DNA of 41,981 nucleotides from Candidatus Poribacteria bacterium (GCA_028821605.1 JAPPFM010000046.1:97124-139104), one strand, 5' to 3'; shown: positions 12,627-28,138, counted from the stretch's first letter. Numbers and translations are program-made. Notes: generated from the letters alone by a model not told the origin.

Positions 12627-14546
12627 ATGAAACTTTTTGTGCCGGGAAGAATTTGCCTGTTCGGGGAACACAGTGATTGGGCAGCAAGGTACCGGCAAAA
12701 TAACTCACAAATTGAAAAGGGTTATACGTTAATAACGAGCACGAACCAAGGGGTATACGCCGAGGTTAAACCGCATCCAACGCAGCTGATTTTAAATACA
12801 ACTCTCAGTGATGGTACCCGTCACGGTCCTTATAGCCTGCCCATGGAGAGGAGTGCACTTCTCGCCGAAGCTGAAAAAGGCGGATTTTTCAGTTATGCCG
12901 CCGGTGTTGCATATCAAATTTTAACCAACTATCGGGTGCAAGGGCTGGAAATTGACAATTATCTCACCGATTTGCCTGTGAAAAAAGGGTTGTCTTCAAG
13001 TGCAGCCATCAGTGTGTTGGTCGCGCGTGCCTTCAACCGTACGTATGATCTGAAGATGACAACACGCGGTGAAATGGAATATGCTTACCGCGGTGAGACG
13101 ACAACGCCTTCGCGTTGTGGACGGATGGACCAAGGGTGTGCATACCAACGACCTATCCTCATGACGTTTGATGGCGACAATGTTGATGTCCGAGAACTCA
13201 GTGTGCCGAAAGACCTATACCTTGTGATTGTTGACCTCGGTGCCGGTAAAGATACACGTCTGATATTGAACCAATTAAATCACTGTTATCCGTTCGCTGA
13301 GAGCGAATTAGAGAAAAATGTACAACACTACCTCGGTCCCATAAGCGCGCAGATTACACAAGAGGCATATCAAGCACTTCGTGACGGAGACGCAGAAACG
13401 GTAGGCAAACTGATGACGCGCGCGCAAACCGAGTTTGACAAACATCTGATTCCGGCATGTCCTTCGCAATTGACAGCACCTGTCCTCCACAAAGTCCTCA
13501 ATTATGAACCGATTCAGCCGTATATTTGGGGTGGCAAGGGGGTCGGCTCACAAGGTGACGGATCCGCTCAATTTATTGTGAAAGATGAAGAGTGTCAGGA
13601 GCGTGTCATTGAGATTATTGAACAGGATTTGGAGATGTCGTGTCTGAAGTTGGTCATCGAAGCGAGCAGCCACGTCCGAAAGGCTGTCATTCCTGCTGCT
13701 GGGTTCGGGACTCGGTTATTCCCTGCTTCAAAAGCGATGAAAAAAGAGTTGTTTCCTGTGATTGACAGTTCAGGACAGGCAAAACCGGCGATTATGGCAA
13801 TCGTTGAAGAGGCGATCAACGCTGGCATTGAGGAAGTCTGTCTCATTGTTCAGAGTGGAGATACGGAACTTTTTGAATCGTTTTTCAAAACGCCGCCACC
13901 GATTGAACATTACAATAAACTCAGCAAAGAGAATAAAACATATTGCGACTATCTGCTGGAATTAGGGAGTCGGGTGACGTTCGTCACACAGGACGTTCAA
14001 GAAGGTTTTGGGCATGCTGTTTATTGTGCCAGAGAATGGGTTGGAAACGAACCCTTTCTATTAATGCTTGGCGACCATCTCTACGGTTCAGATGAGGAAA
14101 AATGCTGCGCGCAACAGGTCGTTGAGGCTTATGAACAGGTGGGGCATAGTGTCGTTGGACTTAAAGAGACACCGATTGAGGACTTATCAAACTTCGGCTG
14201 CGTAACGGGTGTATGGAAAGAAGAGAATTCACTGCTTTCGGTGACTGAATTTTATGAAAAACCGGATCCTGAGTATGCAATGGAGCATTTGCACGTAGAT
14301 GGAATGGATATAGACCAGTTCTTGACGGTGTTCGGCATCTATGTGCTTCAACCTCAGATTTTCGAGTTTCTGGAACAGAACATCGTGCATAATTTGCGTG
14401 AGCGCGGGGAATTCCAGTTGACATCCTGTTTAGACGAGTTGCGGAAAGCGGATGGATTTTCAGGATATGTTGTCAAGGGAAGACGGTTTGACATCGGTCT
14501 CCCGGAAGAGTACCGGCAAACGGTTATTGATTTCAGGAATGCATAG
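12627..14546 (+). CDS. Fused GHMP sugar kinase / GalU-type nucleotidyltransferase
   Basis: A 639-residue protein joining two full-length enzymes. Residues 1-350 are a GHMP kinase of galactokinase type. They show the substrate signature PGRICLFGEHSDW (6-18), the ATP loop KKGLSSSAA (119-127), the catalytic Asp in RMDQ (D168) and the third motif GGKGVGSQGDGSAQF (302-316). Residues 352-639 are a UTP-sugar-1-phosphate uridylyltransferase-like domain. They show PAAGFGTRLFPASKA (356-370), K372/K373, LGDHLY (491-496, metal Asp) and DIGLPEEY (622-629). Kinase product would pass directly to the pyrophosphorylase: sugar to sugar-1-phosphate to UDP-sugar. The logic matches FKP (fucokinase/GDP-fucose pyrophosphorylase), but the domains are in the opposite order and the second is GalU-like. 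AAGGA six bases upstream supports the start. The sugar is not determined. Confidence 0.85.
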   Translation: MKLFVPGRICLFGEHSDWAARYRQNNSQIEKGYTLITSTNQGVYAEVKPHPTQLILNTTLSDGTRHGPYSLPMERSALLAEAEKGGFFSYAAGVAYQILTNYRVQGLEIDNYLTDLPVKKGLSSSAAISVLVARAFNRTYDLKMTTRGEMEYAYRGETTTPSRCGRMDQGCAYQRPILMTFDGDNVDVRELSVPKDLYLVIVDLGAGKDTRLILNQLNHCYPFAESELEKNVQHYLGPISAQITQEAYQALRDGDAETVGKLMTRAQTEFDKHLIPACPSQLTAPVLHKVLNYEPIQPYIWGGKGVGSQGDGSAQFIVKDEECQERVIEIIEQDLEMSCLKLVIEASSHVRKAVIPAAGFGTRLFPASKAMKKELFPVIDSSGQAKPAIMAIVEEAINAGIEEVCLIVQSGDTELFESFFKTPPPIEHYNKLSKENKTYCDYLLELGSRVTFVTQDVQEGFGHAVYCAREWVGNEPFLLMLGDHLYGSDEEKCCAQQVVEAYEQVGHSVVGLKETPIEDLSNFGCVTGVWKEENSLLSVTEFYEKPDPEYAMEHLHVDGMDIDQFLTVFGIYVLQPQIFEFLEQNIVHNLRERGEFQLTSCLDELRKADGFSGYVVKGRRFDIGLPEEYRQTVIDFRNA

Positions 14547-14587: not shown

Positions 14588-17500
14588 TTAAGGAACTTTG
14601 ATGACGACGATTGTCATATCATCGTATTGTTCCGCTTCACCGACGAAGCCTTGGACATCCGAAACGATGCTTTGAATTACTTCCTCTGCAGTGTAGTGAT
14701 CAGGGATTCTTGAAACTAAATCCTTTAAGCGTTCCGTCCCGTACATTTCCTCATCCGTATTGAGGGCTTCAATGAGGCCATCTGAATGGAAAATCAAGAC
14801 ATCATCCTCATTTAAATCGAAGGTGATGGATTCATACTCGACCCTTTTCATACTGCCAAGTGGGAGGTCGCTGCTGTCAATCTCAAAGACATTCGTGCCT
14901 CGCTTGAGAACGGGATAGGGTTGCCCGCCGTTGGCATAGTCAATCTGTTTTTTCTCTTCATCAAGGATTGCGAGATTGAGTGCGATGAAACTCGGTCCGT
15001 ACATACGGGGTGCTAACCCCCTATTGAGATCGGTGAGAATGATGTCTGCTTCAGATTTGAAACGCGAGACTTCATACAGCATCCCGTTTGTCAGCACTGC
15101 ATTCATTGCGCCTCGTAACCCTTTTCCTGCAGCGTCTGCCACCGCAATTGCAGTCTGCCCGTTCGCGACGGTGAGGTAGTCGTAGAAGTCGCCACCTACC
15201 TGCGTTGCGGGGACCGACATCCCTGCGACATCGAATCCCTTTGTATCCGGTGCTTCCGTAGGTAGAAGTCCCATCTGGATATTCTGTGCTTCGTTCAACT
15301 CATCACGGATACGTTGTACCTCCGCCTCTTCTCTTTCACGCATTTCGTTGCGTAGCTGTACCGTGTGTCGACGGTTGACGACCAAACGTCCAATCAAAGA
15401 GAGGACAACAGTCACAAAGATGAGTGTCGGAAGGTATCTTCGCCATCGCGTCCAGAAAGGGGCTGAGATACTAAAGTCCACTGCTGCTGCGGGTTCCGTG
15501 TAAGGCGAGCCTTTACGGAACGCCTTGACGAGGAAGCTGTAGTTACCCGCTTTAAGACCTGTATACCGAATACGCAGAATCCCATTTTGGTTTTGGAATT
15601 CCTGTGTAACGCCGCTATCCTGCAGGAGTTGTTGATCTGGCAATCCGATTGCCGAAGCGTCCGTCCACTCTTTGGATCGAACGCCAGAACCGGTTTTCAA
15701 GAGAGAGAACGCCTCTGCTGAAAGGGTGGTCCACGTTGGGATATCCAATCCGGTTAATTTGAATTCGTAGGAAAGTCCTTCTCGGAGTGGACTGATGCCT
15801 TTCACATTAAAGGTTTTTGAGCCGCGTGCTGGTAGCGTTAAACTGGCTGAGAGGTCAGTGTAGGTTGTATCCGCCTCTAAGGCGGTTAACCGACAAAATG
15901 GGAGTCCACCGATCGTCGGTGTATAGTGTGTAACACCGCCTTCGGTTGCGAACCAGAGGTCTTTGTCCGAGGACTCATGAATTTTCGAGATGTTATTATG
16001 CGCCAAACCGTTTTTGGTTGTAAGGGGATAGAAGGTCTCGCCATCATAGCGGAGGATGCCTCCGCCCCATGTTGCGAACCATATATTTCCGCGGCTATCT
16101 TCCATCACATCTCGCACGTTGTTAACAAGAAATTCATCTTCTTTTTTTGCATATTTTGTGAGTCTTTTTCCATCATATCGAACGGCTCCCTGAGATGTTG
16201 CTAACCAGAGGACTCCTTCTTGTGAAGTTAGGAAGGCTTGAACATCAGCGAGGTTAAGGTCGTCAACAGTGATGAGTGCTATGCCGTGATATGTTTTAAG
16301 AACGTCAGGAAAAAGAAAGGTTATTCGATTATTTTCTTGCTGGGGATCCTTCCATACTGCGAGTGGGGCTGAGCTGGACTCTCCGTCGAGTAAAATTGGT
16401 CCACCGAGTTCAGTATCACTCCAGATTATCAACTTTCCTGTTACCGCGTTGAAAAACCATTTGCTTCCCGATGCAGCTTTCAACAGCATTGTCGCTTTCA
16501 GAGGGAGAATTTCTGGCTTAATAGGACGGTCTGTGGGTTTTAATTGTGTAATGGTTTTCGGATAGCGCAGCACCTTTCCGTTCTCAAAATGTACCCAAAG
16601 TCTTTCGTTGGTATCCGTGTACAAGTCAGTAATGGCGGCTGCGCCGTGATCAAGCGGGTTTATTGGCTTAGGGACTGTACCCGGACCGGTTTGTTGAAAG
16701 AGAATCCTCTGGAAGCCGGTGTCCGTGAGCCGCAATAATCCTGTCCTGTCTGCTTTGAAGAGATGCCCCCCAAAAGCCAGCCATACGTCTTTCCCTTCAA
16801 TGATGTGTATATCAGTGCTGCTCCCCGACATTTCTCCGCCGGGTCCGACTTGGGTTCGGATAGGAATGGATACCTGATCAACTTTTCCGCTTGCGAACCG
16901 GAAAAACGTATATATAGGTCGCGTGGCACCAGCGCGCGCTCTCGGTTCATCAATAAACCAGACATCTCCGCCAACTTCAAATATTCTTTCAATTTCAGTT
17001 CGAGGTAACCGAGAGCGATCTATACTACTGGGGTTAGCTTGGGAGTTGGGGGACAAAATGTTTTGTGCTGAATCTACTCTGAATAAATGTGTGGTAAGTT
17101 CTGTTGTCGTCGGATTATAACGCCTAACGCCGCCAAGAATACTGAACCAGAGATAACCTCGACTATCCTCATACACCATTCGGACCCTGTTCGTGCCGAG
17201 TCCAGCATGTGTACTAATTACAGGTGTTGGGTCGAATACTGTCGTACCGTTATTGTGACCGAACCACAATTTACCGTCGACGGCTTCAACAATCGTATGG
17301 ATGCCCTCAATTCCGAGTTCACTATAGACGCTATCAGGTGCTAAATTAAGCTGACTATCGTATTGGTGTGCCCCAAGTTCATCCGTCACCCATAGATTTC
17401 CCAAAGCATCCTCAAGCTCAAGGAATCCTATCAGATTTCCGTGTAGTGAACCCTTCAACCACCTTGTGGTGCGTCCATCACTAAACCAAACTCGTCCTTG

Positions 17501-19780: not shown

Positions 19781-20524
19781 TTATTTCAGATGAAGGATTG
19801 ACTGTTGGGTTTCGCTGAGGCTTTCCATAACGTTAGGACTGAAGTGCAGACCTTGACCGCCCCAATCTGGCATATAACCGATGCTGTAGCAGTAATAAAG
19901 CGTCCGACGCGGGTTGCCAGAAACGTTGATGACGGACCCGTGTGTGAGTGCCTCTGTGAAGATGATAGCGTCCCCTGCTTTTGCTGGGATCGGTGTTAGT
20001 ACAGGGTTTTCGTCGGGATGGCCTCCCCAAGGTTTTGGGAAATTGCTCTTATGGGCACCCGGTATAACAGCGAAACACCCGTCTTCTACATCGCAATCCA
20101 GCATCGGAAAGACTGCTTTTGTTAAGGTTGACACCATCTCTCCGTTTTTGCAATGGTATTGGCATTTCGGGATAATTGGTGTTCCGTGCATGTGTAACCC
20201 GGTATAGCCACCGCCCCACCGGTAAATCGTATACGTGTGATTGAGTCGATAGGGACCGCCGGTTACGCCTTGGATTACATCCAACACCTCTGGAATGTCG
20301 ATGAGGTCGTTAAAGGTGCTGTCTGCCTCCAAAATATTGGAGATATAGAGTTCTTTCTCCGTTCGCTGTGTGCCGAGGCACAGGGGAGATGGATAATCGT
20401 CAGGCGGCATGTTCTCGTACTCATCTAACACAGTGTTACACGCATCAATCACTGACTGCGGGATAACACTCTTTAGCAGAATGAAACCTTGTAAGTCAAA
20501 TAGATATTTTTGTTCGTCTGTCAT
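19781..20524 (-). CDS. PhyH-like (phytanoyl-CoA dioxygenase family) protein
   Basis: A 247-residue double-stranded beta-helix protein of the Fe(II)/2-oxoglutarate PhyH family. Recognisable parts are the N-terminal helix (LFDLQGFILLKSV), the first iron-ligand region (GLHMHGTP, H111), the conserved DGCFAVIPGAHKSNFP segment (148-163), the distal His (THGSV, H195) and the 2-oxoglutarate Arg (RRTLYY, R206/R207). The usual H-x-D acid is not seen: the sequence reads H111-M-H113-G. It may belong to a subfamily with an altered metal site. AAGGAAAAG precedes the start. The gene lies between the YCF48 lipoprotein and dapL genes. Substrate unknown. Confidence 0.8.
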   Translation of the reverse strand: MTDEQKYLFDLQGFILLKSVIPQSVIDACNTVLDEYENMPPDDYPSPLCLGTQRTEKELYISNILEADSTFNDLIDIPEVLDVIQGVTGGPYRLNHTYTIYRWGGGYTGLHMHGTPIIPKCQYHCKNGEMVSTLTKAVFPMLDCDVEDGCFAVIPGAHKSNFPKPWGGHPDENPVLTPIPAKAGDAIIFTEALTHGSVINVSGNPRRTLYYCYSIGYMPDWGGQGLHFSPNVMESLSETQQSILHLK

Positions 20525-20557: not shown

Positions 20558-22570
20558 TTACGGAACAGCCTCATACCTGAGAATTGTTCCGTTTTGACCA
20601 ACCACCCATCCGCTGTCTCTGCTGCTTATGTAAATAGCCTTCAAATCCGTTCGGGTCTCTGTGTGCTGGGGTCTCCAATTTTGCCCGCCATCCTTTGTGT
20701 GCAGGACAAGCCCCTCTTTTCCAACGATCCAACCTTCTGTTTCTGAGATAAAAAATACGTCGTCAAGGAAATTGGCGGTATGACTCTCTTGGCGTTGCCA
20801 TGTCTTGCCGCCGTTCTCCGTGTGTAGAATCAACCCATCCATACCCAAACTGCGTAGATCCAATCCTACGACCCATCCAATTTCTGGTGAGACGAAGGTA
20901 ACGGCATCTAAAAAGAAAAATGGATGCCGTCTACTGATAGATGCCAACTTCCAATTGGTGCCGCCATCAACTGTGGAAAGCATTGTGCCATTCATTCCGA
21001 CGACCCAACCGCGTTGTTTGGAGGTGAAGTGAACGTCAAACAGGTTCCAAGTCGTTCCGCTCTTTTGTCGGTTCCACGTTTTTCCACCGTCATTTGTGTG
21101 GATGATTTCGCCGCCGCTTCCGACACACCATCCGTTTTCTTTGTCGAGAAAAAAAAGAGAGAGTAAGTCCTGTTCTGTGTTTGAGGTTTGACGATGCCAA
21201 ACACTTCCGCCGTTTGCTGTGTGCAGAACCACGCCTGCTTCAGCAACTGCCCACCCGACTTGTGCGGACACAAAGTGAGTCGCACCGAAACACTCTGTCG
21301 TGCGGCTGTCTTGTGCGTTCCATACAACGCCACCATCTTCGGTTCGTAGAATCGAACCTCGGTCTCCAACGACGTATCCTTCCTTCGACGAAGTCGCGCA
21401 CACACCGACGAGGAGATGGCTGGGACTTGATTGTGATTCCCATGTTACGCCGCCGTTGCGAGTGTGCAGGATCGTCCCGTTCTCACCGACTGCCCAGCCC
21501 AATCGTTTAGAAACGAAGTCGATACCCAATAGGACAGCGTCCGCGCTGTTGTGAAAGCGGGGACCGCCGCGTTGATGTTTCCATTTTCCTTTTCCACCAG
21601 ATGAGGTGTGAAGAATCACCCCTAAATCGCCGACAATCCAACCGTTTTGGGCATCCGTGAAGTCAATATCGTAAAGTGTAAAGGTATGTAGTGGCTCTTT
21701 GCCGAGATACTCCGGTTGTCCGTAACTGCTTTTATGACGTTCATTTGTTCCGTGTGTAATAAATTCCCACGTCTCTCCGCCATCGGTTGTTGCGAAGACG
21801 CTCCGTCTATCGCCTACAACCCAGCCTGTCTGTTCGTCTATAAAGTGAAGGTTGAATAGGGCAGCTTCTGTCTCGAATTGGGATTGCCACGTCTCTCCGC
21901 CATCGGTTGTTCGATAGATGTAACCCGCATTTTTATTATGTGTTGATGTCGGTGTATTGTAGGTGATAATCCAACCCAGATTTTCGTTTACGAAGTGGAC
22001 ACCTTTCAGTGATTTTCTGTTGAACACCTTTCCATCAATCTTTGTAAACGTCTGTCCGTCATCGGTTGTTTTCAGCAGTGTGCCCCAATCCCCGACGATC
22101 CAGCCCGTAGCCTCGCCTATAAAAAGATCGTGCAAGTTGTTTTCTGTACCTGTTTCAATATGCCGCCACGTTTGACCACCATCCACTGTATGGATCAGAA
22201 CACCGCCTTCACCGGTGCACCAACCTTCCAATGCGGAGCGAAAATAGACGTTTCGCAAGGGCTTGCCGAAAACACCGCTGCTCTGTCTGTGCCACGTCTG
22301 TCCGCCACTTTTTGTATGGATAATGAGGCTTTCCGCATCCTCTTCACGATCAAGACTTGGAATTAGGTCTACCGCGTTGCCAACTGCCCAGCCCAAAGTT
22401 TCGCTTACAAAATGGACATCGTATAGGTGCGAATTCCAATCTCCCTCCATGACGGTCTTCCATCTGTACCGCGTTTGTGCATTAGACGTTGTATCTTCAC
22501 ATCCGATTATAAATAATGCAATGATGAGGACAACAGACACGGAGGGAACACGCGAATGACGTTGCAGCAT
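20558..22570 (-). CDS. YCF48/BNR-repeat propeller lipoprotein, 14 blades
   Basis: A predicted exported lipoprotein of 670 residues. The N-terminus from the ATG at 22570 reads as a lipoprotein signal ending in the lipobox LFIIGC. The rest is a series of YCF48-like repeats of the form GW-x-VG-x-x-G-x-x-x-x-T-x-DGG-x-x-W. Fourteen GW/GY-VG motifs can be counted (for example GWAVGENGT, GYVVGDRGS, GWVVGQNGT), which fits two seven-bladed Ycf48/Hcf136-type propellers. Ycf48 assists photosystem assembly in phototrophs; outside them the role is unknown, so extracellular binding is only inferred. The start is four bases after the dapB stop. An upstream ATG (22615) inside dapB is an alternative. Confidence 0.8.
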   Translation of the reverse strand: MLQRHSRVPSVSVVLIIALFIIGCEDTTSNAQTRYRWKTVMEGDWNSHLYDVHFVSETLGWAVGNAVDLIPSLDREEDAESLIIHTKSGGQTWHRQSSGVFGKPLRNVYFRSALEGWCTGEGGVLIHTVDGGQTWRHIETGTENNLHDLFIGEATGWIVGDWGTLLKTTDDGQTFTKIDGKVFNRKSLKGVHFVNENLGWIITYNTPTSTHNKNAGYIYRTTDGGETWQSQFETEAALFNLHFIDEQTGWVVGDRRSVFATTDGGETWEFITHGTNERHKSSYGQPEYLGKEPLHTFTLYDIDFTDAQNGWIVGDLGVILHTSSGGKGKWKHQRGGPRFHNSADAVLLGIDFVSKRLGWAVGENGTILHTRNGGVTWESQSSPSHLLVGVCATSSKEGYVVGDRGSILRTEDGGVVWNAQDSRTTECFGATHFVSAQVGWAVAEAGVVLHTANGGSVWHRQTSNTEQDLLSLFFLDKENGWCVGSGGEIIHTNDGGKTWNRQKSGTTWNLFDVHFTSKQRGWVVGMNGTMLSTVDGGTNWKLASISRRHPFFFLDAVTFVSPEIGWVVGLDLRSLGMDGLILHTENGGKTWQRQESHTANFLDDVFFISETEGWIVGKEGLVLHTKDGGQNWRPQHTETRTDLKAIYISSRDSGWVVGQNGTILRYEAVP

Positions 22571-22574
22571 CCAA

Positions 22575-23390
22575 TTAATCGGACTTCTGAGAATGAAAAA
22601 GGACTTCGCTGACATCGTGTAAGCCTTTGGAAGCGTTGACGACCCATCTCGCTGCGCGAATCGCGCCTTTCGCAAACGCCTCTGGACTGTGGGCGCGATG
22701 AACAATACTCAACTGCTCGCCCTCGGTTGTAAACAGCACGGTATGATCCCCAGCAATATCGCCACCTCGCACCGCATGGATACCAATCTGTTTCTTGGGT
22801 CTGGCACCGACAATACCGTGTCTGCCGTAAACGCCGACCTGGTCTAAATCCCGTTTGAGTGTCGTGGTGACCGTCTCTGCTAAACGAAATGCTGTGCCGC
22901 TCGGTGAATCTGCTTTGTGGTTGTGATGTGCTTCTATTACCTCAATATTATAATCATCTCCGAGGGCTTTTGCAATTAATTCGAGTGCTGGGATCATTAC
23001 GTTGACACCGAGGCTCATGTTCGGTGCCATTACGCAGCGAATCTGGGATGCGAGTGTTCTGATGGTGGCGAGTTCATCAGGATCAAATCCTGTTGTTCCA
23101 ATAACGATGGCTTTCTCTGTATTGACAACCTGCTGGAGATGTTCCAAGGTCGCTGTCGGTTTTGAAAATTCAATGACGACATCAGCGTTTTGGAGGACAT
23201 CTTCAAGTTTACCCGTGATGGAGACACCTATTTCACCAATACCCGCGACAATACCCGCATCACTTCCGATGTGTGGATGCGATGGGTATTGGATAGCCCC
23301 AACAAGTTCCATATCTGATTGTTGAGCGATGCCTTGTGTGATGCACCGTCCCATACGACCACAGACACCGGTGATAACTACACGAATCAT
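22575..23390 (-). CDS. dapB: 4-hydroxy-tetrahydrodipicolinate reductase, copy 1
   Basis: A complete 271-residue DapB. Dinucleotide-binding motif GVCGRMGR lies at residues 8-15 and IGTTGFDPDEL at 97-107. The substrate and catalytic segment is AHHNHKADSPSGT (154-166), with H155 and K159 equivalent to E. coli H159 and K163. The enzyme reduces the DapA product to tetrahydrodipicolinate, the substrate of DapL encoded downstream. The start is placed at 23390 by alignment with copy 2; upstream in-frame codons to 23510 run into the 119-bp repeat and are not real coding sequence. No strong ribosome-binding site is seen. About 80 percent identical to copy 2 by eye. Confidence 0.92.
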   Translation of the reverse strand: MIRVVITGVCGRMGRCITQGIAQQSDMELVGAIQYPSHPHIGSDAGIVAGIGEIGVSITGKLEDVLQNADVVIEFSKPTATLEHLQQVVNTEKAIVIGTTGFDPDELATIRTLASQIRCVMAPNMSLGVNVMIPALELIAKALGDDYNIEVIEAHHNHKADSPSGTAFRLAETVTTTLKRDLDQVGVYGRHGIVGARPKKQIGIHAVRGGDIAGDHTVLFTTEGEQLSIVHRAHSPEAFAKGAIRAARWVVNASKGLHDVSEVLFHSQKSD

Positions 23391-23412
23391 TTTTTTAATT
23401 ATGAGCCTCTGG

Positions 23413-23531
23413 GCAAGTTTGAATATTAAATATGCACATTGTTGATTTATGACGGGCGGGGAGACCGCGCCCCTACGAGGTTCGCACCCATCAGAAATCC
23501 GAAAAACCATAATTTATTATTTAATATTGCT
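23413..23531 (+). repeat. 119-bp intergenic repeat, copy B
   Basis: Ungapped match to 12471-12589 with ten differences. It lies between the two dapB genes, 22 bp upstream of the copy 1 start, and includes the palindromic GGGCGGGGAGACC core and the 3' end TTTAATATTGCT. Confidence 0.8.
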
Positions 23532-23596
23532 TGGGCACCGTTTAAGTCAATGGGATTGCTGCTAAGAAGTATATTTGAGGTTAAAGGTCGCGTCTC

Positions 23597-24400
23597 TTAC
23601 TTCTGAAAGAGAACTTCGCTGATGTCGTGCAATCCCTTGGGAGCATCGACGACCCATCTCGCTGCACGGAGCGCGCCTTTGGCGAATGCCTCTGGGCTGT
23701 GGGCACGGTGGACAACACTTAATTGCTCACCCTCGGTTGCGAACAGCACGGTATGATCCCCGGCAATGTCACCGCCTCGTACCGCATGGATGCCGATCTG
23801 TTTCTTGGGTCTGGCACCGACAATACCGTGTCTACCGTAGACACCTACCTCGTCTAAGTCTCGATCCAATGCCGCAGCGACGGTTTCCGCTAAACGGAGT
23901 GCTGTGCCACTCGGTGAATCTGCTTTGTGGTTGTGATGCGCCTCTATGACCTCAATATCGTAATCGTCTCCAAGAGCCTTAGCGATTAATTCAAGGGCTT
24001 GGATCATCACGTTGACACCGAGACTCATGTTCGGTGCCATCACGCAGCGGATCTGTGAGGCGAGTGCTTTGACAGTTTCCAATTCGTCAGGATCATATCC
24101 AGTTGTTGCGATTATCATCGCTTTGTCGGCATTGACGACCTGTCGGAGGTGTTCAATAGTTGCTTCAGGTTTGGAGAATTCGATGACGACATCAGCGTTC
24201 TGAAGTACGTCGTCAAGTTCACCTGTGATGGGAACACCAATGTCGCCGATACCTGCGACGACACCCGCATCGCTCCCGATTTGGGGGTGTTCAGGGAATT
24301 CAATCGCGCCGACAAGTTCCATATCGGCTTGTTGGGAGACACCTTGGATAATGAGCCGTCCCATACGGCCGCATGCCCCATTAATAATTACACGAATCAT
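23597..24400 (-). CDS. dapB: 4-hydroxy-tetrahydrodipicolinate reductase, copy 2
   Basis: A 267-residue DapB paralogue, collinear with copy 1. GACGRMGR lies at 8-15 and the catalytic segment AHHNHKADSPSGT at 154-166 (H155, K159). One difference stands out: the family's GTTG loop reads ATTG here (A98), where copy 1 keeps Gly. This loop lies near the nicotinamide in known structures, so coenzyme preference or activity may differ; that is inference. Both copies are full length with no frameshift, so both are probably expressed. Neither copy has a strong upstream ribosome-binding site. Confidence 0.9.
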   Translation of the reverse strand: MIRVIINGACGRMGRLIIQGVSQQADMELVGAIEFPEHPQIGSDAGVVAGIGDIGVPITGELDDVLQNADVVIEFSKPEATIEHLRQVVNADKAMIIATTGYDPDELETVKALASQIRCVMAPNMSLGVNVMIQALELIAKALGDDYDIEVIEAHHNHKADSPSGTALRLAETVAAALDRDLDEVGVYGRHGIVGARPKKQIGIHAVRGGDIAGDHTVLFATEGEQLSVVHRAHSPEAFAKGALRAARWVVDAPKGLHDISEVLFQK

Positions 24401-24514: not shown

Positions 24515-25435
24515 CTATTTCAACGTGAACAGATATGCCAGAAGGTCATGCATCTGCTTTACTGACAGAATATCAGCGAAGTTTTCAGGCATAACGCCTG
24601 CTTGTGGGACACTCGTGCTTATCAAATCCTTTTTAAAGTAAGTTGTCCACAGTTTTCCAGATTCGTCGAGTATCTGGATTGTTTCAGGGTCCTCTCTGCC
24701 TCTGTGATCGTACAGATAACGCTTTCTACCGGTAACTTCCTTCCCATCCTTGGTGAGAATGGTAATCATCTCATATTCAGGCGCGATATAAACGCGTGGA
24801 TTGAGGATAGATTCAATGATGAATTGGGGTGAGCGGGTGCGGGCAATATAGGTCATATCTGGACCTATCTCACTTCCAGTACCGGTCGCTCCCCTTCCGT
24901 GAACTGTGTGGCATTTACCGCAAGCGTATCCTTCTGAGAAAAAGATTTCTTCTCCTGTTTTGGGATCGCCCTGCATATAGGGGGTCCAATCCTCAGAAGG
25001 TTTTGTTTCCTCTACGGAAACCCCTGCGGCTTTTGCTTGTTCCGATCGGACGTAACCAACAATCATGTGAATCGCTTCGTCAGAGAGTTTGCCACCGAAC
25101 TTTTGCATCCGCGTCCCCGGAAGTCCATTGAATATTGTCTGGAAGATACCGTCATCCGTCCATCCGTAAAGCCACTGCGGTTTGAAGAGGTCCGGTGCCT
25201 CCCTACCGCGTGTCTCTCCTGCATGACACCCCCAACACATCAAACGGAAATAGAACGCTCCGTCTATAACGTCTTCCTCAGTGGTGTCTTCTCTCGGTGC
25301 CGCGGGGGCAATGTCTACCTCTAATTCTTGGGCGTTTACGAAGGTTAAGAGAAATAGGCTGATGCCTAAGAAAACAAGGAGAATGCTACACGCTATGCGT
25401 ATAGTGGAAGTTGTAATGTGGGTAGAGTGCCTCAT
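24515..25435 (-). CDS. Diheme c-type cytochrome (XoxG/MxaG-like electron acceptor)
   Basis: A 306-residue exported cytochrome. An N-terminal signal sequence (about 12-36, ending FVNAQ) precedes two heme c sites: C67-W-G-C70-H71 and C172-G-K-C175-H176. Likely axial methionines are M110 (GTRMQKFGG) and M282 (GVMPENF). The first domain resembles small class I cytochromes. The second, larger domain (about 155-306) has a beta-rich insert (MITILTKDGKEVTG) like the cytochrome domains found beside PQQ enzymes. It would take electrons from the quinoprotein dehydrogenase in the periplasm. The gene overlaps the binding-protein gene by four bases (ATGA), indicating translational coupling. Confidence 0.85.
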   Translation of the reverse strand: MRHSTHITTSTIRIACSILLVFLGISLFLLTFVNAQELEVDIAPAAPREDTTEEDVIDGAFYFRLMCWGCHAGETRGREAPDLFKPQWLYGWTDDGIFQTIFNGLPGTRMQKFGGKLSDEAIHMIVGYVRSEQAKAAGVSVEETKPSEDWTPYMQGDPKTGEEIFFSEGYACGKCHTVHGRGATGTGSEIGPDMTYIARTRSPQFIIESILNPRVYIAPEYEMITILTKDGKEVTGRKRYLYDHRGREDPETIQILDESGKLWTTYFKKDLISTSVPQAGVMPENFADILSVKQMHDLLAYLFTLK

Positions 25436-26307
25436 TTCTTTTCATCCTCCTGAAATGGAGCGAAGTAAGGCAAATAGTACTTCTCGGAGAGCTCTTTAAG
25501 TTTCTCTTCACTCCATTTCTGTTCGATAATTGTGTTAACAACATCTTGAAGTTCACTGGTCTTTCGCGTTGGTGTGTCTTTGCTGAAAGCAATAGCAACG
25601 TTCCAACGGAGGCGGGGTTCAGGAACGTACCCTTCAACAATCTCTAATTCAGGGTAAACACGATTCATCTGTTCTGCCTGCTGAATTCGGGAACCCTTTT
25701 CAAGCAGCCACCCAATATTTGCCCAGACACATGCGTAAGCGATTTTTCCGTCTCGGACGGCATTCAAGACATCAATTTGTGAGCGGTAGATGCGACGGTT
25801 ATATCCCATCTGTCGCAGTACATCGCTTGCGATGGATCCTGCTTCCGCGCCAATCATTTCTAATTTGATGTCTTCCAGTTTTTTAGGTGCCTGTTGGTTG
25901 TCTTTTCGCTTTACCAATACGTAACCAGTGCCGTAAAAGGGTTTAGAGAAGTCAACGCGTTCGCCTAATTGGATTGCTTCAGCCATGGCGCGCTCCTCAA
26001 TAGGGACTCCGATCACACAGTCACAATGCCCGCGTATCATGTCAGCAAGCAGGCTATCACGGAGGGTGTTAAGCCAGTGGAGTTCCAATTTAACGCTGAG
26101 TTCCTCTGCCAGTAGATGTGCTATCTCCACATATAACCCAGGAAGTTCCGGATCGGTATTGGAATAAGGCAAATTTCGGACATCCATGCAGACTGTTAAG
26201 ACACCCTTTGCCTTAATTTCTTTCAAGGTGCTCTCAGCGTTTGCATTGTGTAGCATCAAAATAGGCAATATGAGAAGCGCAATCCACAAAGTAATATAAT
26301 GTTTCAC
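25432..26307 (-). CDS. Periplasmic quinoprotein-associated binding protein (XoxJ/MxaJ-like)
   Basis: A 291-residue family 3 solute-binding-type protein with a signal peptide (MKHYITLWIALLILPILML, cleavage near NANA-E). The segment GVLTVCMDVRNLPYSN (35-50) matches the quinoprotein-associated branch typified by MxaJ/XoxJ (V-C-x-D-x-x-N-x-P-[FY]-S-N) rather than amino acid transport. No ABC permease or ATPase gene is adjacent. The position between a PQQ dehydrogenase gene and a cytochrome c gene is the usual xoxF-J-G context, where J is thought to help mature or activate the dehydrogenase. Confidence 0.85.
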   Translation of the reverse strand: MKHYITLWIALLILPILMLHNANAESTLKEIKAKGVLTVCMDVRNLPYSNTDPELPGLYVEIAHLLAEELSVKLELHWLNTLRDSLLADMIRGHCDCVIGVPIEERAMAEAIQLGERVDFSKPFYGTGYVLVKRKDNQQAPKKLEDIKLEMIGAEAGSIASDVLRQMGYNRRIYRSQIDVLNAVRDGKIAYACVWANIGWLLEKGSRIQQAEQMNRVYPELEIVEGYVPEPRLRWNVAIAFSKDTPTRKTSELQDVVNTIIEQKWSEEKLKELSEKYYLPYFAPFQEDEKK

Positions 26308-26319
26308 GGGCTATCTCCA

Positions 26320-26435
26320 TTTAATAGTTGTCAGTTGTCAGTTCTCAGTTGTCAGACAAACACCGCTTGTGATAGGTTAGATCCTTCACAACTGCCACGC
26401 GATTAACTGACAACCAACAACTGATAACCGATAAC
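26320..26435. repeat. Inverted TTGTCAGTTGTCAG-type repeat
   Basis: Direct runs of GTTGTCAG near 26328-26355 are mirrored by CTGACAACC..AACAACTGATAACC near 26407-26432. Together they form a potential large stem in the gap between the PQQ dehydrogenase and XoxJ-like genes. Similar motifs recur near 11470 and 38490. Confidence 0.55.
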
Positions 26436-28138
26436 TATTTATCAAAGAGCGCGAACACAAAGAGGGTTCCGCCTTGGCGCGCGTTCACTTCAGCATATTT
26501 CACAGCACCTGACGCTATCGCAACGTATTGCGTCCCGTCGAGTTGATAGGTAATGGGTGGTGCGAGAACCCCGGATCCGGTTTGGAAATCCCAAAGCACT
26601 TCGCCATTTTCTGCCGATAGTGCCATAAATCTCCCCTCTAAATCGCCAGCGAAGACGAGACCCCCTGCTGTTGTGAGGCAGCCGCCCCATTGTGGGAAGT
26701 TCGTTTTGTGCCGCCATTTAATCTCACCTGTAGAAATATCAATCGCACTGATATGTCCCCACATCATCATGTCCCCGTCTTCGTCTCTCTCGGCTGTCAT
26801 ACCGCTTCCAAGATAGGGTAAACCCTTCAAGTAGAAAACACGCCCTTGATGGTAAGAGCCACAGAGTTCCAGCGAAGGAACGTAGAGGTAGTTTGTGAGT
26901 GGATTATAAGCTGAGGGGGGCCAGTTCTTGCCGCCTTCAACACCCGGACAGACACGAATCGTGCCTTCTTCTGAGGTGGATACGCCAGGTAGGACCGTTG
27001 GACGACCGTTTTCATCGAGTCCCGCAGACCAGTTCTGTTCGCAGTAAGTGCTTGCATATAGGAATTTCCCGTTGGTTCTATCGAGGACATAGAAGTAACC
27101 GTTGCGGTTCGCTTGCATCAACGCTTTAACCGGTGCGCCGTCAATTTCCATATCAATCAGGACAGGTTCACTCACACCGTCCCAATCCCAGAGATCGTGG
27201 GGTGTCGCTTGAAAGTACCATTTGAGTTTTCCTGTATCGGCATCTAATGCAACGATGCAGTCGGTGTAGAGGTTGTCGCCTCTCCGGACAGCACCGTTCC
27301 AATCGGGTGCGGGATTACCCGTTCCCCAGTAGACGAGATTCAGTTCCGGATCGTAGGAACCTGTGACCCACGCGGATCCGCCGCCTGTCATCCATGAATC
27401 GCCTTCCCATGTGTCCCCGCCGGGTTCGTCTTTTGAAGGGACGGTATAAAATCTCCATGCCTGTTCACCCGTTTCAGCGTAATACGCATCAATGTAGCCT
27501 CGGATGCCGTATTCCGCTCCTGATATACCGACAACCACTTTATCTTTCACGACTAAGGGGGCAACGGTGAGAGATTCAGCGTTCGTCAGATCGCCGACAA
27601 CTCTATCCCATAATACCCTGCCGGTTTTCACGTCAAGCGCGAGAAGGTGTGCGTCAAGCGTTACCCAGAAGATTTTTTCGCCCAGAATGGCAGCCCCTCG
27701 ATTCACCATACCACAGCAGATCGCCAAATCGTCGGGGAGTTCATAGTCGTACCGCCATATTTCCTTACCCGTTCTTGCGTCCACGGCGTAGATCGTGCTG
27801 TAAGGGGTCGTAATGATCATCACACCGTTGACGACAAGTGGGGTGCATTCAAACTTATCGAATGGTGTTCCAATTTGGAATGCCCATTTTGGGACGAGTT
27901 TGTTGACGTTTTCGGTGTTAACTTCTGTCAGTTGACTGTATCGCCAGCTTCTGTAGTCCCGTCCATACATCAACCAACTTTCGGGATCGTCTTGTGCTGA
28001 AAGCAGCATCTCGTTGGTGACAGGTTGGATATTTTCTGTCCCGGCGTTGGCTGGAACGGGACTCAATATCGCAACAAGGACTAAGGCTACTACAAAGATG
28101 GCGAGGGGGACTGCTTCGAGAAAAATGTGCCTCTTCAT
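26435..28138 (-). CDS. PQQ-dependent alcohol dehydrogenase, XoxF/MDH-like
   Basis: A 567-residue periplasmic quinoprotein. The start is 28138 (MKRHIFLEAVPL), with GGAGGC upstream; the longer frame to 28222 has no site. The signal peptide ends near PANA. An eight-bladed propeller follows with W-motifs such as TGKEIWRYDYE and TGRVLWDRVVG. The adjacent Cys pair C141-C142 (CCGMVNRG) is the disulfide ring typical of methanol-dehydrogenase-type enzymes. Metal ligands align as E209 (GAEYG), N275 (GTGNPAP) and D318 (HDLWDWDG). A further Asp, D320, two residues on matches the D-x-D signature linked to lanthanide-dependent XoxF, ExaF and PedH. D-x-D also occurs in some Ca/Mg quinoproteins such as membrane glucose dehydrogenase, so the metal is not proven. 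It heads the dehydrogenase-J-cytochrome cluster. Confidence 0.88.
   Translation of the reverse strand: MKRHIFLEAVPLAIFVVALVLVAILSPVPANAGTENIQPVTNEMLLSAQDDPESWLMYGRDYRSWRYSQLTEVNTENVNKLVPKWAFQIGTPFDKFECTPLVVNGVMIITTPYSTIYAVDARTGKEIWRYDYELPDDLAICCGMVNRGAAILGEKIFWVTLDAHLLALDVKTGRVLWDRVVGDLTNAESLTVAPLVVKDKVVVGISGAEYGIRGYIDAYYAETGEQAWRFYTVPSKDEPGGDTWEGDSWMTGGGSAWVTGSYDPELNLVYWGTGNPAPDWNGAVRRGDNLYTDCIVALDADTGKLKWYFQATPHDLWDWDGVSEPVLIDMEIDGAPVKALMQANRNGYFYVLDRTNGKFLYASTYCEQNWSAGLDENGRPTVLPGVSTSEEGTIRVCPGVEGGKNWPPSAYNPLTNYLYVPSLELCGSYHQGRVFYLKGLPYLGSGMTAERDEDGDMMMWGHISAIDISTGEIKWRHKTNFPQWGGCLTTAGGLVFAGDLEGRFMALSAENGEVLWDFQTGSGVLAPPITYQLDGTQYVAIASGAVKYAEVNARQGGTLFVFALFDK

Follow-up and report, generated by a model that had tools for sequence, protein, structure and literature searches.

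A three-gene module in a 41,981-nucleotide stretch of DNA from a Candidatus Poribacteria bacterium (GCA_028821605.1 JAPPFM010000046.1:97124-139104; hereafter the window, with positions counted from its first letter) is best read, with moderate confidence, as encoding a periplasmic alcohol dehydrogenase that depends on pyrroloquinoline quinone (PQQ) and probably on a lanthanide, and that would pass its electrons to a fused diheme cytochrome c while using scavenged PQQ. The host belongs to the sponge-associated Candidatus Poribacteria; its genome measures 6.0 Mb and is 98% complete, and its named near relatives are metagenome-assembled genomes of the same candidate phylum. The module lies on the minus strand and reads from position 28138 to 24515, with the dehydrogenase gene (26435..28138, 567 residues) followed by a GTG-initiated gene for a MxaJ/XoxJ-like periplasmic binding protein (25432..26307, 291 residues) and then by the cytochrome gene (24515..25435, 306 residues). 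The original prediction had described these three open reading frames as a XoxF/XoxJ/XoxG-type module, and they are present as it described them, including a four-base ATGA overlap between the last two genes (25432..25435) that is not conserved in every relative. Signal-peptide-like N-termini can be read directly from the sequence of all three proteins; that of the dehydrogenase spans approximately residues 1-32, judged by eye.

Active site and clade of the dehydrogenase

The dehydrogenase scores 651.2 bits against TIGR03075 (PQQ-dependent dehydrogenase, methanol/ethanol family), above the curated cut-off of 480.05, and is the only protein in the window's genome to exceed it. Its best sequence match in the PDB is PedH (6zcv, E = 1.5e-136), with XoxF at 3e-116, and its AlphaFold2 model (predicted local distance difference test 79, predicted template modelling score 0.84), which describes the fold only and contains no metal, has PedH as its nearest solved fold (6zcw, E = 4.3e-61, 42% identity). 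The residues singled out in the original prediction all align with positions in MxaF 1lrw: the C141-C142 pair (27713..27718, minus strand, as for all residues given here) with C103-C104, the predicted metal ligands E209 (27512..27514) and N275 (27314..27316) with E177 and N261, the predicted catalytic base D318 (27185..27187) with D303, and the extra aspartate D320 (27179..27181) with A305. In known quinoprotein enzymes, the vicinal disulfide formed by such a Cys pair touches PQQ. Among the 17 positions of MxaF 1lrw that contact PQQ or the metal, 16 are identical in the Poribacterial dehydrogenase (E97, C141, C142, V145, R147, T191, S206, G207, A208, E209, W257, N275, D318, R345, N405, and W484 in its own numbering), and the remaining one, T241, is replaced by Ser (S255). 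The C-terminal G539-W540 of MxaF is not kept, as is also the case in PedH and 1flg. Judged from these alignments, the PQQ and metal site is complete.

The two aspartates of the D-x-D motif, like N275, are invariant across all 24 rows of the dehydrogenase family alignment. At the position equivalent to D320, the calcium enzymes MxaF, 1flg, and 1kv9 carry Ala, Ser, and Thr, respectively, and XoxF and PedH carry Asp. Taken with PedH as the nearest fold, the D-x-D motif suggests that the metal of the dehydrogenase is probably a lanthanide.

Two phylogenetic trees, a quick one of 50 sequences and a careful one of 39, gave agreeing placements. The XoxF references of the careful tree comprised XoxF5, XoxF2, and Sinorhizobium XoxF, with references for XoxF1, XoxF4, and ExaF left out. 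In this tree, the Poribacterial enzymes fall outside both the XoxF and MxaF clade (10 sequences, support 100/100) and the PedH/ExaA clade (5 sequences, support 100/100), and they group in a third clade (99/99) with a dehydrogenase from Verrucomicrobia (locus L065), Acidobacteria, and one Streptomyces sequence (L127). They belong to neither the glucose-dehydrogenase branch nor a calcium-only clade. Thus, the original proposal of periplasmic PQQ-dependent alcohol oxidation at a D-x-D metal site is supported by the complete cofactor site, the invariant motif, the nearest fold, and the clade. The XoxF/XoxJ/XoxG name given to the module does not stand, since the enzyme lies outside the XoxF/MxaF clade and lacks, in the alignment, both the XoxF-type insertion before the TWEGD segment and the C-terminal GGW of XoxF, and since the cytochrome, with its two domains, is another kind of protein. 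Membership in XoxF was ruled out by the tree, the missing insertion, and the C-terminus; by the D-x-D signature alone (D318, D320), the enzyme would have qualified.

The closest comparison is with PedH/ExaF enzymes, which share the soluble type, the D-x-D motif, the Cys pair, and the lack of the XoxF GGW, but which form a clade of their own apart from the Poribacterial enzyme. The XoxF/MxaF clade also includes two plasmid genes that adjoin cytochrome oxidase genes (L133 and L139); these may represent XoxF3 systems, as such neighbors have been described for XoxF3 (PMC10875860). Two further plasmid sequences (L128 and L130) form a separate D-x-D clade in which QLHPT replaces the Cys pair, and each adjoins a gene for a Rieske 2Fe-2S protein.

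Partner proteins and the proposed electron path

The product of the second gene is, by its matches, a distant homologue of XoxJ/MxaJ. It scores 72 bits (4.5e-20) against TIGR03871 and 46 bits against TIGR03870, under the respective cut-offs of 212 and 258 bits, and its best match in the PDB is XoxJ (6onp, 2.7e-10). The proposed MxaJ/XoxJ-like identity is therefore borne out as homology, though a remote one. An activation role has been proposed for XoxJ and MxaJ, and the Poribacterial protein most likely assists in loading or activating the dehydrogenase.

The cytochrome combines an N-terminal cL-like domain, which resembles cytochrome cL and CcoP, with a C-terminal heme domain that matches PDB 7zs0 (8.3e-26). 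It exceeds the cut-off of TIGR02603, the model of its C-terminal domain (71.3 versus 68.15 bits), and falls below that of the MoxG model (32.8 bits, 6e-8, versus 147.8). Two heme-binding sites are encoded on the minus strand: CWGCH (residues 67-71, 25223..25237) with the Met ligand M110 (25106-25108), and CGKCH (residues 172-176, 24908..24922) with the Met ligand M282 (24590-24592). Both CxxCH sites (C67-H71 and C172-H176) and both Met residues are invariant in 10 homologues from Poribacteria, Verrucomicrobia, and Acidobacteria, and His/Met ligation is therefore probable at both hemes. The two hemes had already been flagged as unusual for XoxG, and identity as a single-heme cytochrome cL (XoxG) was rejected on the basis of the two CxxCH sites, the two invariant Met residues, and the MoxG score.

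In quinoproteins, a base takes a proton from the substrate, hydride passes to PQQ, and a c-type cytochrome then accepts the electrons one at a time. By analogy, the exported dehydrogenase would hold PQQ and the metal through E209, N275, D318, and D320; an alcohol, presumably a small one, would bind near the PQQ-metal pair, D318 would abstract a proton, and hydride would be transferred to C5 of PQQ, giving an aldehyde. The cognate diheme cytochrome would then reoxidize the reduced PQQ. Most likely, its cL-like domain docks on the dehydrogenase and its second heme hands electrons towards the respiratory chain; the fused protein could possibly carry both electrons and serve as the bridge. This arrangement differs from a PedH-like neighborhood (L129), in which the PedF cytochrome is separate. 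XoxF-XoxJ-XoxG systems, including the XoxF3 systems of Acidobacteria and Verrucomicrobia (PMC10875860), likewise have adjacent genes for a D-x-D dehydrogenase, a binding protein, and a cytochrome c. In contrast to them, the Poribacterial module belongs to another clade, has neither insertion nor GGW, encodes a two-domain diheme cytochrome, and lacks adjoining cytochrome oxidase genes as well as PQQ genes anywhere in the genome as searched.

Conservation, distribution and repeated loss

Wherever the contig reaches, Poribacterial carriers show the constant order lipA, dehydrogenase, XoxJ-like gene, cytochrome, dapB, dapB. The dehydrogenase is under strong purifying selection, with a median ratio of non-synonymous to synonymous substitution rates (dN/dS) of 0.052, comparing with 0.112 for the XoxJ-like gene, 0.112 for the cytochrome, 0.053 for dapB, and 0.045 for lipA. 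Because dN/dS is low and no internal stops occur in the module genes of 14 genomes, these genes are judged to be in use. The partnership also recurs in another phylum near PQQ genes, as the Verrucomicrobia nzgw608 locus (L065:10583-15832) encodes in a row a dehydrogenase 55% identical to the Poribacterial one, XoxJ-like proteins, and a cytochrome of the same diheme architecture. This locus differs in having a second XoxJ-like gene and in the adjoining pqqE (minus strand, 13138-14265) and pqqC-like gene (minus strand, 15032-15832).

Within the window's genus, 26 of 38 genomes, its own included, carry the whole or partial dehydrogenase gene. The 20 genomes of the family's other genera all lack it, and among 14 genomes representing the order's other families it was found in one, at 81%. 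In the non-carriers G015, G010, and G040 (another genus), the 3' end of the cytochrome gene survives between lipA and dapB as an in-frame stub devoid of heme sites, and a non-carrier of a third genus (G038) shows a weak, frame-broken trace of it at the lipA-dapB junction. In another family of the order, genome G064 contains a decayed dehydrogenase (L044, G064:C155:59668-60717) with frameshifts and many stops, TGA, TAG, and TAA among them. These remnants place the module in the ancestor of this family at the least, with several deletions since then. A recent horizontal gain in one genus is ruled out by the same stubs, trace, and pseudogene.

Two dapB-like genes stand in tandem (22575-24400, minus strand) directly downstream of the cytochrome gene; both copies occur in most Poribacterial carriers, and G010, G019, G020, and G040 have a single copy. 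They are followed by a gene for a beta-propeller repeat protein rich in GWxVG motifs, YCF48-like by eye (20558-22705, minus strand), and then by one for a phytanoyl-CoA-dioxygenase-like protein, also assigned by eye (19781-20524, minus strand). Both of these genes are conserved downstream in genomes without the module as well.

PQQ supply, competing readings and significance

The original prediction had noted that no PQQ synthesis genes lie in the window; this is correct, and the absence extends to the whole genome in searches for pqqC and pqqE. In 13 genomes of the window's genus, of which three are single-contig, no credible match to pqqC (TIGR02111) was found; the positive controls, a Mesorhizobium plasmid and the Verrucomicrobial genome, scored 323 and 332 bits, respectively. 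Likewise, no true pqqE was found in 13 Poribacterial genomes; the best matches to the pqqE model reached 118-128 bits against a cut-off of 381 and are most likely other radical S-adenosylmethionine proteins. A genome from another family (G071), which is 7% contaminated, holds a partial PqqC-like match of 83 bits at a contig edge. The window's genome is thus apparently unable to make PQQ. Since pqqC and true pqqE are absent while the controls score, PQQ is probably taken from neighboring organisms, which would be fellow members of the sponge community. Scavenging of PQQ by organisms that do not make it is common, and importers of the PqqU type carry the signature residues Y99, R304, and R365 (PMC12124388). 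The genome contains 17 TonB-receptor plug matches. For one receptor (L169:674-3058, plus strand; G000:C32:89674-92058), the best NCBIfam match is PqqU, at 110 bits against a cut-off of 1200. This best candidate, which aligns only weakly with PqqU (approximately 25% identity), lacks Y99, R304, and R365; the alignment covered five of the approximately 17 receptors. Receptors of this type occur in three of 24 same-genus genomes searched (the window's own genome G000, G016, and G021), all of which carry the dehydrogenase. This narrow distribution and the missing residues make PqqU a doubtful route for PQQ.

Several points weigh against a PQQ- and lanthanide-dependent enzyme. The module is dispensable, as 12 of the 38 genomes of the genus lack it. 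The enzyme could be present in apo form, given that PQQ genes are missing and that none of the five aligned receptors bears the PqqU signature. Selection bias accounts in part for the conservation of D-x-D beyond Poribacteria and Verrucomicrobia, as PHDLWDWD was one of six patterns in the collection scan; the Poribacterial dehydrogenases were found without this pattern and the Verrucomicrobial one reads WDYD. Finally, membrane glucose dehydrogenase carries D-x-D and yet has been characterized with calcium or magnesium (PMC11996626), so that the motif is no proof of lanthanide use. This last point bears on the strongest competitor, in which the third-clade enzyme would be a calcium-dependent PQQ alcohol dehydrogenase and its second Asp would confer no preference for lanthanides. 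We know of no assayed member of that clade, and calcium in seawater exceeds the lanthanides by approximately nine orders of magnitude (PMC11996626). We nevertheless regard calcium dependence as unlikely, given the Ala, Ser, or Thr of solved calcium enzymes against the Asp of solved lanthanide enzymes and the proximity to PedH in both sequence and fold.

Still less probably, the protein binds no PQQ and serves some other purpose, as an "empty quinoprotein" like the acidobacterial relatives named by NCBI (TIGR04528, acido-empty-quinoprotein group A). Such a role would fit the missing PQQ biosynthesis genes, and the dehydrogenase does score 515.7 bits against this model; this is, however, below the cut-off of 650, while the TIGR03075 cut-off is exceeded. 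The TIGR04528 proteins share the broad third clade and keep D-x-D. Deep members of the clade have the Cys pair and derived Acidobacteria have lost it, often together with E55 (MxaF numbering), whereas the Poribacterial protein retains the pair and its PQQ contacts. The kept cytochrome partner and the pqqC and pqqE beside the Verrucomicrobial relative also argue against an empty protein. Acidobacterial sequences of this kind (L069, L070, L072, L076-L079, L088, L090, L099, L101, and others) have D-x-D, Asn261, and the catalytic Asp with the Cys pair gone, and several have Asp in place of Glu177 (MxaF numbering); in them, the metal site appears to outlast the Cys pair.

The genome search gave no match to Fae, and the relatives of glutathione formaldehyde dehydrogenase that it returned all scored under the cut-off; this mildly disfavors methanol as the main substrate. 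A true XoxF-XoxJ-XoxG methanol dehydrogenase system, making Poribacteria lanthanide-dependent methylotrophs, is very improbable: D-x-D, the XoxJ-like gene, and the cL-like first heme domain speak for it, but the placement outside the XoxF/MxaF clade (which does take in L133 and L139), the absent insertion and GGW, and the lack of Fae and of an above-cut-off glutathione formaldehyde dehydrogenase speak against it. As a statement of clade it is refuted, although methanol activity could still exist.

Returning to the favored lanthanide enzyme, proven lanthanide-dependent dehydrogenases comprise two groups, XoxF and ExaF/PedH. Within the literature collection searched, no paper combined "Poribacteria" with "lanthanide", and "PQQ-dependent" appeared only in a Methylacidiphilum genome paper. 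More tentatively, and at slightly less than even odds in our judgment, the module may represent a lanthanide-dependent clade outside both groups with its own fused diheme cytochrome, in an abundant sponge symbiont that depends on its community for both PQQ and rare earths. The third clade is apparently unassayed, and a D-x-D enzyme belonging to it offers a test of whether the motif by itself is enough to predict the use of rare earths. If this reading is true, the known biology of Poribacteria would be widened by the oxidation of alcohols, the sharing of PQQ, and possibly the use of rare earths.

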